Source: Apostichopus japonicus (lineage: Eukaryota > Echinodermata > Holothuroidea > Aspidochirotida > Stichopodidae). From it: a stretch of DNA of 64,000 nt. Under the pieces are notes generated by a model. It made no database searches and was not told the DNA's origin. It worked only from the letters and a program-made list of their open reading frames with translations. The position numbers were made by a program, and so were the translations under genes. Location of the stretch: assembly GCF_037975245.1 (NCBI RefSeq), contig NC_092568.1:30767501-30831500 (forward strand). The letters are read 5' to 3'. Of this stretch, positions 30,601 to 64,000 are shown one piece after another; positions within the stretch are counted from its first letter, which is position 1, and each line of letters starts with the position of its first letter.

Positions 30601-31192
30601 TGCAACTCACAGTAATTATTTGATGTTCATGCAGCTGATACTATTACTACTTATTTTATTACAAATGCAGTTTTCCATCAGATTTTCTGTGGTATTAAAA
30701 CCACTGATTACCCTCAAATTAAACTTCTTTATGAAATATTACGGCCTAGTCATTGACAAAGGTATTTCCTGTACTTCCACATTGTTTTGTATTATTATTG
30801 TTATTATTGTTATAATTTATTCCTGAAGAGGTTTCTTTATTGAAATATATTTTGATGTGTACCTTATGTGAAGATTTCACTTCTAACATAGTTGTACATC
30901 CTTGCAGAGACTACTCACATGGATGAATGTTTAAACAGATGCACTATTTCATTGAAATATTAGACACATTAATGTTCTCAACATCAGTACCAGTATTTGC
31001 TTTTGTCTCAACTTAGAAGAAGCCCAAGAAGAGATTCTTACAAAAGAGGGTTATAATTAAACCATTCAAACAGATTGTTAACAGAAAAATGGTGAATTTA
31101 GAATTTAGATAGCAGATATTTTCATTCCTTCCTGTTAATCTGTGTGTGTTTCTATCATTAAGTCACATGCCTGTATGTAATATTAAGTTTCA
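27682..31192. other. ASB3 3' flank and intergenic DNA
   Basis: A candidate poly(A) signal AATAAA lies at 28746-28751, about 1.07 kb after the stop codon. At about 29870-30070 a segment with 'cagtggtggcaaa', 'gagccaca' and 'gagccacgg' phrases resembles the ends of hAT-derived repeats, but no clean inverted pair was found. C-rich tracts occur at 30065 and 30310. No recognised coding frame. Confidence 0.4.
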
Positions 31193-32154
31193 TTTCTCAG
31201 CGTTATGCAGGGTGAATTTGTTTGTGTTGAGCAGATTGCATTTCTCAGTGTTGGGCAGACTGCATTTCGCAGTGATATGCAGACTGCATTAGTGTTGGGC
31301 AGACTGCATTTCTCAATGTTGGGCAGGCTGCATGTTCTCAGTGTTATGCAGACTATTTCTCAGTGTTGGGCAGGCTGCATGTTCTCAGTGTTATGCAGAC
31401 TATTTCTCAGTGTTGGGCAGCTTGCAGTTCTCAGTGTTGGGCAGCTTGCATTTCTCAGTGTTGGGCAGACTGCATTTCTCAGTGTTGGGCAGACTGCATT
31501 TCTCAATGTTGGGCAGACTTCATTCTCAGTGTTATACAGACTGCATTAGTGTTGTGCAGACTGCATTCCTCATTGTTGGGCAGACTGTATTTCTCAGTGT
31601 TGGGCAGACTGCATTTCTCAGTGTTGGGCAGACTGCATTTCTCAATGTTATACAGACTGCATTAGTGCTGGTCAGACTGCATTTCTCAATGTTGGTCAGA
31701 CTGCATTTATCAATGTTGGGCAGGCTGCATTTCTGAGTGTTATGCAGACTGTATTTCTCAGTGTTGGGCAGACTGCATTTATCAATGTTGGACAGACTGC
31801 ATTTCTGAGTGTTATGCAGACTGTATTTCTCAGTGTTGGGCAGACTGCATTTTCAGTGTTGGGCAGGCTGCTTTTCTCAGTGTTGGGCAGACTGCATTTC
31901 TAAGTGTTGGGGAGACTGCATTTCTCAATGATGGGCAGACTGCATTTCTCAGTGTTGGGCAGATTGCATTTCTCAATGTTGGGGAGACTGCATTTCTCAA
32001 TGTTGGACAGACTGCATTTCTGAGTGTTATGCAGACTGCATTTCTGAGTGTTAGGCAGACTGCATTTCTCAATGTTGGGCGGACTGCATTTCTCAATGTT
32101 GGGGAGACTGCATTTCTCAGTGTTGGGCAGGCTGCATTTCTCAAGTTGGGCAAT
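31193..32154. repeat. 24-bp minisatellite, about 40 copies
   Basis: The unit is TCTCAGTGTTGGGCAGACTGCATT (four of its bases vary between copies: cag/caa, ggg/atg, gac/ggc, cat/tat). Because 24 is divisible by 3 and the unit lacks stops, several frames on both strands stay open as 8-residue periodic peptides (e.g. SVLGRLHF). This is a by-product of the repeat, not evidence of a gene. A few units are shortened by 4-7 bp. Confidence 0.95.
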
Positions 32155-38588: not shown

Positions 38589-41354
<2,766 letters not shown>

Positions 41355-58727: not shown

Positions 58728-59172
58728 GGTGGCAAACTCCTATTAGAGTATATCAATCAGTCTGCATGTTCTCCTTACAGGAAAAGTGCCAACATGCAGT
58801 ACGAAAACATCTTTTTTGATACGTTATCAATCAGGATATGGTTTCTTTTGTCTTGCATGTTGAAGAAATAAATGGAAGTACATGTGGTGCAAAAATTGGG
58901 TCAATTGAGGCAATATTAGACCCCCTTTAGGCCTCCCAGGAGCAGGTATGATAATTGTTTACTACTGAGTGAAGAGGTCTGTTTACAAGTGACGAAAACT
59001 TCCGGCTCGGATAGCAAAAAATCTGCAAGGTCATGATACAGAAATTTAAAGTGCCATGAAAGGCCAACTTGTCAGCTATCCAGTGATGGGCAGCTTTTAG
59101 CTAGTGAGAACTTCTACCTAGACTAGACTTTAGTGTGTAAGTCAATGGGGCTTTTAATGGGCGTATGCTACC
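58728..59172 (-). mobile_element. Diverged inverted copy of the TTAA-type MITE
   Basis: The reverse complement runs from GGGTAGCATACGCCCATTAA (inner end, 59172) to GGAGTTTGCCACC (58728). It aligns along its whole length with 59188-59654 but carries many substitutions and small indels. Only 15 bp separate the two, so they form a large imperfect palindrome. It lacks flanking TTAA. Confidence 0.9.
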
Positions 59173-59183
59173 CTGGGATCTTT

Positions 59184-61451
59184 TTAAGGTAGCATACGCC
59201 CATTAAAAGCCCCATTGACTTACACACTAAATCACAAAAGTAATGTGGTCTCTAAGTCTAGATAGAAGTTTTCACTAGCTTAACGCTACCCATCACCGGA
59301 TAGCTGACAAGTTGGCCTTTCATGGCACCATCAATTTTCCGTACCATGACCATGAAAATTTTTTGCTATCCGAGCCGGAAGTTTTCGTCACTTGTAAACA
59401 AACCTCTTCACTCAGTGGTAAACAAATTTCCTACGCTGCTCCTGGGAAGCCTAAAGGGGTCTAAAATTGCCTCAATTGACCCAATTTTTTCACCACATGT
59501 ACTTCCATTCATGCTCTTCAACATGAAAGCCACAAAAAACTAGATTATGATTGATAACAGGTCACAAAAGATGTTCTCCTGCTGCTTTTTGGCACTTTTC
59601 CTGAGGGAGAACAATCGAGCGGATTGATATAGACTCTAATAGGAGTATGCCACCTTAAGTGAGAGTTGAATTTTTTTTTTTTTTCCAAAATGATACTTTT
59701 CATAGTCGTCACAATATAAACCACAACAGAATTATATGCAATTATCATTTTAGGTCCATAAAGATGTATTTTCAGAGATTTCAGTATGCACGGTGCAGTG
59801 TGTAAATACACATATGAGCAATACTGTGTAAGCAGTAACCAGGTCTATGTCTGCAACAACACTTCCAGTCACCAATTTTGATAAGCTTGACCAATTTGGG
59901 TGCATCTATGATTCTTGCAGGTATTATTGGTATCCCTGATCACAATCCACTTGGTCTGGCTTGCCCTACCTGCAGAAACATCATCCATAGAAGGGTTAGC
60001 GGTGAGGGCTTTTTCGTCTCTGGCTCTGAAAAGTGATGAAAACTACTTTTGTTTAGCTCAGCAGATTCCTCACAAACTGACCCACAGGACATACCCCAAT
60101 GTATTCCTGAACTGTTTGGAACATGTTAAACTGATATTGCATGTCACTCCAGTGCAACTGTTAAGTTACTAAGAATAAAAGAAGAGAATTGAAGGTGTTC
60201 TTTGCCAAAACTGGATCATCGGGATTTGTAAACAACAGCCTCACTGTAACAGTATTACAGCAGTCAAAAGGAAAGCTTACTGGAATGCTATCTAGATACA
60301 CTGTTCACCTCAATAGCATATCCAGTCCATTTAAAGGTTTGTGCATAGGTTGTTACAATGTATTAAAGACAGTTATAAGAGAAGAGAGGTGGATAGGGGG
60401 GCATATTTCATGATAAAACATTCAAATTTGTTGCTCGGCAGAGAACAACAACGTCAAATTACCTTATTCTCCATTGGTGGCAAGCACTGGTTCCTATAGT
60501 TACTACAGTAGATCTCCCATGGAAGCATCAGGATATCTCTTTCTGCTGTCAGAGTTGTTTGGGATTTGTTGTTACCTCATCTAACCAGTTGAGTCCATTG
60601 ATACCACACCCATTCAAAGTATATCGCTGTGCATGCTGAGGACTTAGCACATCAACTTTCTCTGAAATTGACAAAACAACAGAAAACTAATGAGGAGTGA
60701 ATAGGCTCAAAACCCCCTTGATGCACATTGGCAGAAGCAGAATATGCATACCTTTGTGGATTATTTGCTAAATAAGACTCAAAACATTCTCTGTGCAAGG
60801 TATTAACCCTCAGCAGCCACTCCACTTAGGATACAGACCTCATACAACATTGTGCTACAGCTGGTGTAGACTTGGTCTAGGATACTAACGTAGCGCCATT
60901 ATGAACCTGAGGCCTAGGCCTAAGCTAACAACATTAGGGGTATTTCATGCATTGAAACTGAGTTTTTGTCCTTAGTTAAACACCAGGTACTTCCAGCTTT
61001 AGCAAAAATAACCTAAAGTATGATTACCATGTAATTTAGGTGCCCACAGATGTCAAATTTCACTGAACTTAGTCGTTCATGTCACACACACTGCAGCCTT
61101 TTTGGTCTGATTCTGAGGGATTTTGAATTTCGTGCATTTGGCACCTACTTAGCAGCTTCAAGGCAGGAATCATACTACGGAAGCTTTGGTAGGTCAAGGC
61201 TTAATGACCCAATAGTTTATTGGGGAGGAAAACTGGTTAGAAATGCTCAGAAGGCTGTTCTAGTCTAATGTATGAACACGCACATGCTCTTTGTGGTACT
61301 TTAAGGCTGTAATACTAATTTATGCGTAAAAATCACCCAAGCGTGAAATTTTCTGACGTTTGCTTGAAAACCATTTTTACACACCATAGCAACTACTTTG
61401 ATCCAAAATTGGGACTTCTAGCACTTAAAATGAAAAATTTGGCATTTTTGC
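59184..61451 (+). repeat. Tandem repeat unit 1 (2,268 bp)
   Basis: Begins at the MITE's TTAA. It is followed at an exact 2,268-bp offset by a second copy; all open frames in it recur unchanged in unit 2. The non-MITE part (about 59659-61451) has no recognised gene. Two exon-like pieces are bounded by splice-like signals: + strand from about 59922, with IPDHNPLGLACPTCRN after a TTGCAG, and - strand from about 60661 down to 60580, with LSPQHAQRYTLNGCGINGL between TTTCAG and GTAACA. Both could be chance. Confidence 0.95.
59188..59654 (+). mobile_element. TTAA-flanked MITE (piggyBac- or Kolobok-like), copy in repeat unit 1
   Basis: The ends GGTAGCATACGCC and (reverse complement of the right end) GGTGGCATACTCC are terminal inverted repeats. 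TTAA sits directly outside both (59184-59187, 59655-59658). 467 bp, non-coding. Short low-quality frames inside carry no family signal. Confidence 0.85.
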
Positions 61452-63719
61452 TTAAGGTAGCATACGCCCATTAAAAGCCCCATTGACTTACACACTAAAT
61501 CACAAAAGTAATGTGGTCTCTAAGTCTAGATAGAAGTTTTCACTAGCTTAACGCTACCCATCACCGGATAGCTGACAAGTTGGCCTTTCATGGCACCATC
61601 AATTTTCCGTACCATGACCATGAAAATTTTTTGCTATCCGAGCCGGAAGTTTTCGTCACTTGTAAACAAACCTCTTCACTCAGTGGTAAACAAATTTCCT
61701 ACGCTGCTCCTGGGAAGCCTAAAGGGGTCTAAAATTGCCTCAATTGACCCAATTTTTTCACCACATGTACTTCCATTCATGCTCTTCAACATGAAAGCCA
61801 CAAAAAACTAGATTATGATTGATAACAGGTCACAAAAGATGTTCTCCTGCTGCTTTTTGGCACTTTTCCTGAGGGAGAACAATCGAGCGGATTGATATAG
61901 ACTCTAATAGGAGTATGCCACCTTAAGTGAGAGTTGAATTTTTTTTTTTTTTCCAAAATGATACTTTTCATAGTCGTCACAATATAAACCACAACAGAAT
62001 TATATGCAATTATCATTTTAGGTCCATAAAGATGTATTTTCAGAGATTTCAGTATGCACGGTGCAGTGTGTAAATACACATATGAGCAATACTGTGTAAG
62101 CAGTAACCAGGTCTATGTCTGCAACAACACTTCCAGTCACCAATTTTGATAAGCTTGACCAATTTGGGTGCATCTATGATTCTTGCAGGTATTATTGGTA
62201 TCCCTGATCACAATCCACTTGGTCTGGCTTGCCCTACCTGCAGAAACATCATCCATAGAAGGGTTAGCGGTGAGGGCTTTTTCGTCTCTGGCTCTGAAAA
62301 GTGATGAAAACTACTTTTGTTTAGCTCAGCAGATTCCTCACAAACTGACCCACAGGACATACCCCAATGTATTCCTGAACTGTTTGGAACATGTTAAACT
62401 GATATTGCATGTCACTCCAGTGCAACTGTTAAGTTACTAAGAATAAAAGAAGAGAATTGAAGGTGTTCTTTGCCAAAACTGGATCATCGGGATTTGTAAA
62501 CAACAGCCTCACTGTAACAGTATTACAGCAGTCAAAAGGAAAGCTTACTGGAATGCTATCTAGATACACTGTTCACCTCAATAGCATATCCAGTCCATTT
62601 AAAGGTTTGTGCATAGGTTGTTACAATGTATTAAAGACAGTTATAAGAGAAGAGAGGTGGATAGGGGGGCATATTTCATGATAAAACATTCAAATTTGTT
62701 GCTCGGCAGAGAACAACAACGTCAAATTACCTTATTCTCCATTGGTGGCAAGCACTGGTTCCTATAGTTACTACAGTAGATCTCCCATGGAAGCATCAGG
62801 ATATCTCTTTCTGCTGTCAGAGTTGTTTGGGATTTGTTGTTACCTCATCTAACCAGTTGAGTCCATTGATACCACACCCATTCAAAGTATATCGCTGTGC
62901 ATGCTGAGGACTTAGCACATCAACTTTCTCTGAAATTGACAAAACAACAGAAAACTAATGAGGAGTGAATAGGCTCAAAACCCCCTTGATGCACATTGGC
63001 AGAAGCAGAATATGCATACCTTTGTGGATTATTTGCTAAATAAGACTCAAAACATTCTCTGTGCAAGGTATTAACCCTCAGCAGCCACTCCACTTAGGAT
63101 ACAGACCTCATACAACATTGTGCTACAGCTGGTGTAGACTTGGTCTAGGATACTAACGTAGCGCCATTATGAACCTGAGGCCTAGGCCTAAGCTAACAAC
63201 ATTAGGGGTATTTCATGCATTGAAACTGAGTTTTTGTCCTTAGTTAAACACCAGGTACTTCCAGCTTTAGCAAAAATAACCTAAAGTATGATTACCATGT
63301 AATTTAGGTGCCCACAGATGTCAAATTTCACTGAACTTAGTCGTTCATGTCACACACACTGCAGCCTTTTTGGTCTGATTCTGAGGGATTTTGAATTTCG
63401 TGCATTTGGCACCTACTTAGCAGCTTCAAGGCAGGAATCATACTACGGAAGCTTTGGTAGGTCAAGGCTTAATGACCCAATAGTTTATTGGGGAGGAAAA
63501 CTGGTTAGAAATGCTCAGAAGGCTGTTCTAGTCTAATGTATGGACACGCACATGCTCTTTGTGGTACTTTAAGGCTGTAATACTAATTTATGCGTAAAAA
63601 TCACCCAAGCGTGAAATTTTCTGACGTTTGCTTGAAAACCATTTTTACACACCATAGCAACTACTTTGATCCAAAATTGGGACTTCTAGCACTTAAAATG
63701 AAAAATTTGGCATTTTTGC
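61452..63719 (+). repeat. Tandem repeat unit 2 (2,268 bp)
   Basis: Nearly identical to unit 1. The only difference I noticed is TATGAACACG (unit 1, about 61271) versus TATGGACACG (unit 2, about 63539). It contains its own MITE copy at 61456-61922 with TTAA on both sides. Confidence 0.95.
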
Positions 63720-64000
63720 TTAAGGTAGCATACGCCCATTAAAAGCCCCATTGACTTACACACTAAATCACAAAAGTAATGTGGTCTCTAAGTCTAGATA
63801 GAAGTTTTCACTAGCTTAACGCTACCCATCACCGGATAGCTGACAAGTTGGCCTTTCATGGCACCATCAATTTTCCGTACCATGACCATGAAAATTTTTT
63901 GCTATCCGAGCCGGAAGTTTTCGTCACTTGTAAACAAACCTCTTCACTCAGTGGTAAACAAATTTCCTACGCTGCTCCTGGGAAGCCTAAAGGGGTCTAA
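63720..64000 (+). repeat. Tandem repeat unit 3 (partial, cut by the window end)
   Basis: The first 281 bp of the same unit, again starting with TTAAGGTAGCATACG. The array continues beyond the window. Confidence 0.95.

Follow-up and report, generated by a model that had tools for sequence, protein, structure and literature searches.

The question raised by a 64,000-nt stretch of the holothurian Apostichopus japonicus (C8:30767501-30831500 of a 671.6-Mb genome in 35 contigs; hereafter the window) is what kind of tandem repeat occupies its right end and how that repeat came to be there. An earlier note, made from the window alone, had described an array of 2,268-bp units, each starting at the TTAA of a 467-bp miniature inverted-repeat transposable element (MITE), and had named unequal crossover between MITEs, a rearrangement linked to a neighbouring inverted MITE and a duplicated scaffold end as possible sources. 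We found that this is a real tandem array of a non-coding repeat-core-repeat transposon and not an assembly error, and that MITE-(core-MITE)n as a whole is a mobile element of KolobokP type, which the crossover picture had missed. In what follows, the MITE is called the long terminal direct repeat (LTDR), the core is called INT and n is the number of cores. The array at C8 is very probably a (LTDR-INT)18-LTDR multimer, with one inner LTDR missing, of a non-autonomous KolobokP-type DNA transposon, an assignment made by anatomy against the available part of the published description (Kojima and Bao 2022; PMC9587614).

In the window, the period of the array is exactly 2,268 bp (TTAA, a 467-bp LTDR, TTAA and a 1,793-bp core), the units start at 59184, 61452 and 63720, and adjacent units differ at one of 2,549 compared positions (61275, A versus G). 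Such a tandem repeat is far beyond chance; the period and unit starts given in the earlier note proved exact, and its descriptions of the units as almost identical and of the array as young and MITE-headed were borne out. The features, in window positions, are as follows:

59184..59187, no strand: TTAA at the left edge of the array, unmatched by the ATAT at its right end (C8:30867508)
59188..59654, plus strand: LTDR 1, complete, 467 bp, with GG...CC termini and an 18-bp imperfect terminal inverted repeat (TIR; 15 of 18 positions matching)
59655..59658, no strand: TTAA separating LTDR and core
59659..61451, plus strand: INT 1 (core), 1,793 bp
61456..61922, plus strand: LTDR 2, complete, common to units 1 and 2
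61927..63719, plus strand: INT 2 (core), one base different from INT 1
63724..64000, plus strand: LTDR 3, incomplete at the window edge
58728..59172, minus strand: older solo LTDR, inverted, a neighbour outside the element

The array continues for 36 kb past the window edge and ends at C8:30867507, so that it holds 18 cores and 18 LTDRs in a total of 40.8 kb; at C8:30849363 two cores are joined by a single TTAA with no LTDR between them. The 1.8 kb that had been called unrecognised sequence likewise yielded no recognisable gene: 9 of the 22 open reading frames (ORFs) of INT were searched and contained no Pfam domain, no Rfam RNA family was detected, and two ORFs compared with PDB gave no nuclease match, the best hits (E 0.73 and 0.25) being unrelated proteins.

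A search for other genomic copies of the 1.8-kb part, suggested by the earlier note, showed that core and LTDR are both present at many other places; the core-to-LTDR junction had 154 matches in the genome (≤3 mismatches), compared with 0 for the control. Eight regions were fetched whole, and both ends of the insertion were reached in seven of them (C15a being the exception); these seven loci were picked by similarity to the window and are therefore biased to young copies. A complete LTDR was found at both ends in 7/7 loci, with only full units in between except at C8:30849363, and n was 1 at C11, C12, C13 and C16, 3 at C2, 6 at C15b and 18 at C8. The internal junctions between LTDR and INT were TTAA in 115/115 cases across the eight regions, and the length of the monomer (two LTDRs, two TTAA and one INT) is 2,735 bp. 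The flanks of different loci are unrelated except for further LTDR copies and common repeats. On C16 there is a second array, with 13 core starts (from match coordinates only). The array at C15a has 34 exact core starts, and its size is uncertain because it contains two 100-N assembly gaps, with a switch of orientation at one of them. Those gaps and the near identity of units are what speaks for an assembly artefact. Independently anchored copies with n = 1, 3 and 6, empty sites elsewhere and private differences at most loci argue against it, and we give it almost no credence; as a source of the structure it is unsupported because the unit stands at many other loci, several of them single-copy with target duplications.

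These target duplications were examined in 13 insertions with both ends read, leaving out C4 and C20, where the unit is of an older form and no left LTDR appeared in the sequence fetched, and C15a, where that sequence did not extend to the ends. A perfect 4-bp duplication was present in 9 of the 13 insertions, with nine different sequences (TTCA, ATAT, TTAA, TGAT, ATAA, CGCA, TTAC, CTAA and ACAT). Empty sites were sought with the joined flanks of five loci (1,395 of 1,860 letters were used as query); 2,576 candidates were obtained at first look and 40 were scored, giving 45 match rows, of which 36 span the joined C12 site (n = 1), 4 span the joined C15b site (n = 6) and 5 are short. In 7/7 fetched uninterrupted sites (3 for C12 and 4 for C15b), the target occurs once, with no footprint. 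The C12 insertion and the 14-kb C15b insertion thus lie within dispersed repeats that run on without interruption in their other copies, and the whole MITE-(core-MITE)n accordingly stands as one insertion. No row was obtained for the joined flanks of C11, C2 and C16 among the 40 scored candidates, and the flanks of the C8 array matched only themselves, no empty-site copy being found in the genome.

Several familiar classes were rejected. Satellite DNA, that is, a tandem unit without mobile ends, is ruled out by the target duplications and the empty sites. A piggyBac MITE would be specific for TTAA targets, and 8 of the 9 perfect duplications are not TTAA. The piggyBac family PF13843 had 31 matches in the genome, 8 of them near full length; the flanks (0.7-1 kb a side) of three near-full-length matches contained no similar end, the best match to an LTDR end having 6 mismatches in 18. 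Among the 31 matches, a cluster was seen at C16:29.66-30.75 Mb, several of its members being broken. The internal region of a long terminal repeat (LTR) retrotransposon is expected to begin with a TGG primer-site start, and its ends are TG...CA. Here, the LTDR ends are GGTAGCATACGCC and GGTGGCATACTCC, that is, GG...CC with an 18-bp TIR, and the core begins, as judged by eye, with TTAAGTGAGAG, without such a primer-site start; furthermore, LTDRs are missing at some junctions with one TTAA kept. A small LTR retrotransposon (terminal-repeat retrotransposon in miniature) in tandem is therefore exceedingly improbable, although the outline of direct repeats, short duplications, identical ends and tandem arrays is the same (PMC11899658, in the part available).

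How do the two ends of one insertion come to be alike? We aligned the 26 end LTDRs of the 13 loci and found 51 variant events: 17 were confined to a single locus, where both ends carried them, 9 were shared and both-ended in every carrier, 23 were private and one-ended, and 2 (columns 312 and 329) were mixed, being both-ended at one locus and one-ended at another. No variant common to several loci was at one end only in all of its carriers. When right ends were paired at random among loci, the mean number of paired carriers was 6 and the maximum was 26 in 2,000 trials; the observed number was 41. The left and right LTDRs were identical over their whole length in 7 of the 13 loci. We further compared the LTDRs with INT, in which private variants are those private among the eight cores or loci compared. 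The seven most similar loci have 20 private INT variants; if these arose after insertion, 10.4 one-ended LTDR variants are predicted and 0 were seen (Poisson P 3e-5), and 8 two-ended LTDR variants were counted against 5.2 expected. For the four n = 1 loci alone, which have 14 INT variants, 7.3 one-ended LTDR variants are predicted and again 0 were seen (P 7e-4). LTDR column 166 and INT columns 1055 and 1422 both split C8, C15a, C15b and C11 from C2, C12, C13 and C16.

These alignments suggest that an insertion begins with two end repeats of a single type, equal at birth. The unit seems to travel whole, because the ends are equal and because LTDR and INT fall into the same two groups, and each insertion seems to come from a source with equal repeats, either a homogeneous multimer or a one-repeat circle. 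The homogeneous multimer is more likely, because no unseen molecule is needed. The circle, made of one LTDR and one INT like an IS26 translocatable unit, would have its single LTDR duplicated by a copy-out or replicative reaction, and rolling-circle copies would give the multimers. The 17 private and 9 shared events that are both-ended, the missing one-ended variants in the two sets of loci and the homogeneity of the arrays are all in line with it; however, launch from a homogeneous multimer yields the same pattern without a circle, no circle was observed, and the two mixed events do not fit. We consider the circle possible but unlikely.

Several observations weigh against ends that are equal at birth. 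C7 (4 two-ended and 6 one-ended private variants) and C12b (2 and 2) show both kinds of variants, and C16b has 3 two-ended variants together with a one-ended variant that is also present in C13. At C11, both ends carry a 3-bp insertion that recurs in the adjacent inverted solo copy, a hint of local copying. Four of the 13 insertions, the window's own among them, lack a perfect duplication (C8 TTAA/ATAT, C2 TTAA/TTAC, C18 TTAC/TTAA and C19 ATAA/TTAA), which also speaks against the KolobokP assignment; in all four imperfect pairs one side is TTAA, as though outward copying of the internal TTAA had taken place. The solo copies count against that assignment too: of three complete solo LTDRs, the one at C11 has a perfect duplication (TGAA), that at C2 matches at 3 of 4 positions (ATCT/ATCC) and that at C8 has none. 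The mixed loci, the TTAA pairs and the C11 insertion would favour post-insertion gene conversion between the two LTDRs as what makes the ends identical. Against it, C3 (9 one-ended variants) and C19 (5) have no private two-ended variants, C13, C2, C15b and C11 have two-ended variants and no one-ended ones, and the LTDR and INT columns named above split the seven loci and C15a alike. We hold gene conversion as the cause of the identical ends to be improbable.

An LTDR-INT circle that recombined into pre-existing solo LTDRs, so that the duplications would be those of old solo insertions, is one of the published KolobokP models (PMC9587614, in the part available), and solo LTDRs do exist and can carry a 4-bp duplication, as at C11. 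On this account divergent outer ends are expected, since identity to the LTDR is 83-95% in the three complete solo copies, whereas the full-length identity of both end LTDRs was seen in more than half of the insertions (the 7 of 13 noted above). We disfavour it as very improbable. A broader proposal is that KolobokP-type elements rebuild both end repeats from one template at each jump and insert arrays of tens of kilobases in one event; the renewal route from a single template would be a one-LTDR circle or a replicative step, and a DNA transposon would thereby renew its ends in an LTR-like manner. We put this forward only tentatively and regard it as rather unlikely. KolobokP multimers have been proposed to arise by unequal crossover or through circles, a circular intermediate being left open, and the available part of that description contains no test of variants at the two ends (PMC9587614); the test given here bears on that question.

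The arrays themselves are homogeneous. Across the 18 LTDRs and 18 INTs of C8, 4 sites are variable; C15a has 6 variable columns in 29 cores and 2 in 27 LTDRs; and no variable site was found in C15b (7 LTDRs and 6 INTs) or C2 (4 LTDRs and 3 INTs). Both core variants of C8 are departures from the base at the seven other loci compared, and one of them recurs in two units that are not neighbours, a pattern suggestive of exchange within the C8 array. Unequal crossover between direct repeats is proposed as the simplest source and likely cause of array growth; in this respect the crossover proposed in the earlier note is sound as a likely route to a changed unit number, and it stands as a proposed cause only.

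Junctions without an LTDR are informative about the loss of units. Across the genome there are 5 INT-TTAA-INT junctions (0-3 mismatches), 1 in C8 and 4 in C15a, and they look like excision scars in which one MITE or one MITE-core-MITE was lost and one TTAA kept. The possibility of an ancestral MITE-free core was rejected, all five core-core junctions (≤3 mismatches) being within these two arrays. The exact core start has 87 matches in the genome: 68 directly follow an exact LTDR end, 5 follow a core, 12 are in the second C16 array, 1 is in C15a (with a variant LTDR end) and 1 is at C19:10561938. As a separate observation, at C19:10561938-10565095 core starts point in opposite ways across a 467-bp stretch (one MITE length), with a third facing them 2.66 kb off; judged from match coordinates only, this copy is rearranged and partly palindromic.

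We propose the following mechanism. A KolobokP transposase supplied in trans by an autonomous element would pair any left LTDR end with any right one. If the two ends of one LTDR were paired, a solo LTDR would move, and if ends of different LTDRs were paired, LTDR-INT-LTDR would move; either mobilisation would leave an INT-TTAA-INT scar. After insertion, unequal recombination of direct LTDRs between sister chromatids may raise or lower the unit number; homogeneous multimers would therefore form and could launch new copies with identical ends.

The inverted LTDR to the left of the array is a separate, older solo copy and a neighbour only. It is 84% identical along its full length, its facing 44 nt are perfectly complementary to the array, and the two lie 15 nt apart. 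Its inner and outer flanks differ (CCAG and CATG in MITE orientation), and the 15 bp in between were probably altered later, because the ends of the C8 array (TTAA versus ATAT) and the flanks of the inverted LTDR both mismatch. A palindrome-linked change, as had been suggested, finds small support in the inner junctions at C8, which lack matching duplications, and in the facing 44 nt, which are identical despite 84% overall. The inverted MITE is not a needed cause of the array, because the fetched flanks of C15b (n = 6), C12 and C16 hold no inverted or other MITE copy. Older inverted solo copies stand beside 3 of the 7 insertions, on one side each, at 15 bp (C8, in the window), 48 bp (C11:6216764) and 578 bp (C2:18578878); in 77 kb of flanks the only others were one incomplete copy close to C11 and a fragment duplicated at C13. 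Beside the C13 insertion, at C13:13917905-13922207, a 2,152-bp tandem duplication (100% identical) comprises the left flank together with 354 bp from the start of the left MITE.

Older copies of the unit were also observed. Among the 40 matches listed, an older form recurs every ~165-240 kb near several contig ends (C20:238299-1379014, C19:31268901-32391100, C4:29069448-29526092, C14:113013-326087, C21:160230-337913 and C11:334367-508334), with minus-strand copies at low coordinates and plus-strand copies at high ones, as though it belonged to tandemly repeated giant subtelomeric blocks. Similar spacing was seen inside C4 (10.3-10.9 Mb), and a looser one in C22 (10.4-12.3 Mb), among the same matches. 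The window further contains minisatellites at 31191-32152 (24 bp, about 41 copies) and 40740-41152 (46 bp, 9 copies, 96% match).

Finally, we compared the element with known systems, each source being used in its available part. Two reviews of transposon-derived satellites (PMC12628747 and PMC9659126) describe, in those parts, no structure of the LTDR-(INT-LTDR)n kind. The pseudo-compound transposons and translocatable units of IS26/IS6 have direct-repeat ends and tandem arrays of end and cargo; however, they are bacterial, make 8-bp duplications and have an end element that encodes its transposase (PMC7986276). In composite insertions of maize Ac/Ds, for which rolling-circle replication has been proposed, the ends of neighbouring transposons cooperate and tandem copies are separated by a transposon, although these are individual chromosomal events without a dispersed constant-core family (PMC4270019). 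Tandem LTR retrotransposons form arrays that share internal repeats and are flanked by target duplications, but they have LTR ends and move via RNA (PMC11899658). The CMITE arrays of corals share tandem MITEs and TTAA, but they are arrays of full-sized MITEs and are related to piggyBac (PMC2872659).

The closest likeness is to the KolobokP DNA transposons, whose hosts include three echinoderm species and whose autonomous relatives have a Kolobok-type DDD/E transposase and a His-Me finger nuclease (PMC9587614). Both have the LTDR-INT-LTDR architecture, solo LTDRs and (LTDR-INT)n-LTDR multimers. The LTDR is about 450 or 660 bp there and 467 bp here; its own TIR is up to 18 bp with RR...YY ends there and 18 bp (15 matches) with GG...CC ends here; duplications are 3-5 bp without strong specificity there and 4 bp here (9/13 perfect); INT-INT junctions lose 3-4 bp there and keep one TTAA here; and non-autonomous copies are 1.7-3.3 kb there and 2,735 bp here. 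The differences are that the flanks of INT are TTAA here and TATA in the published example, and that arrays reach 18 (C8), 13 (second C16) and 34 (C15a) cores here, whereas the highest number printed in the available part is (INT)4 (PMC9587614). The present genome offers a clear case of a recently described type of transposon, in which arrays that are both large and recent are seen together with empty sites and apparent scars of excision.

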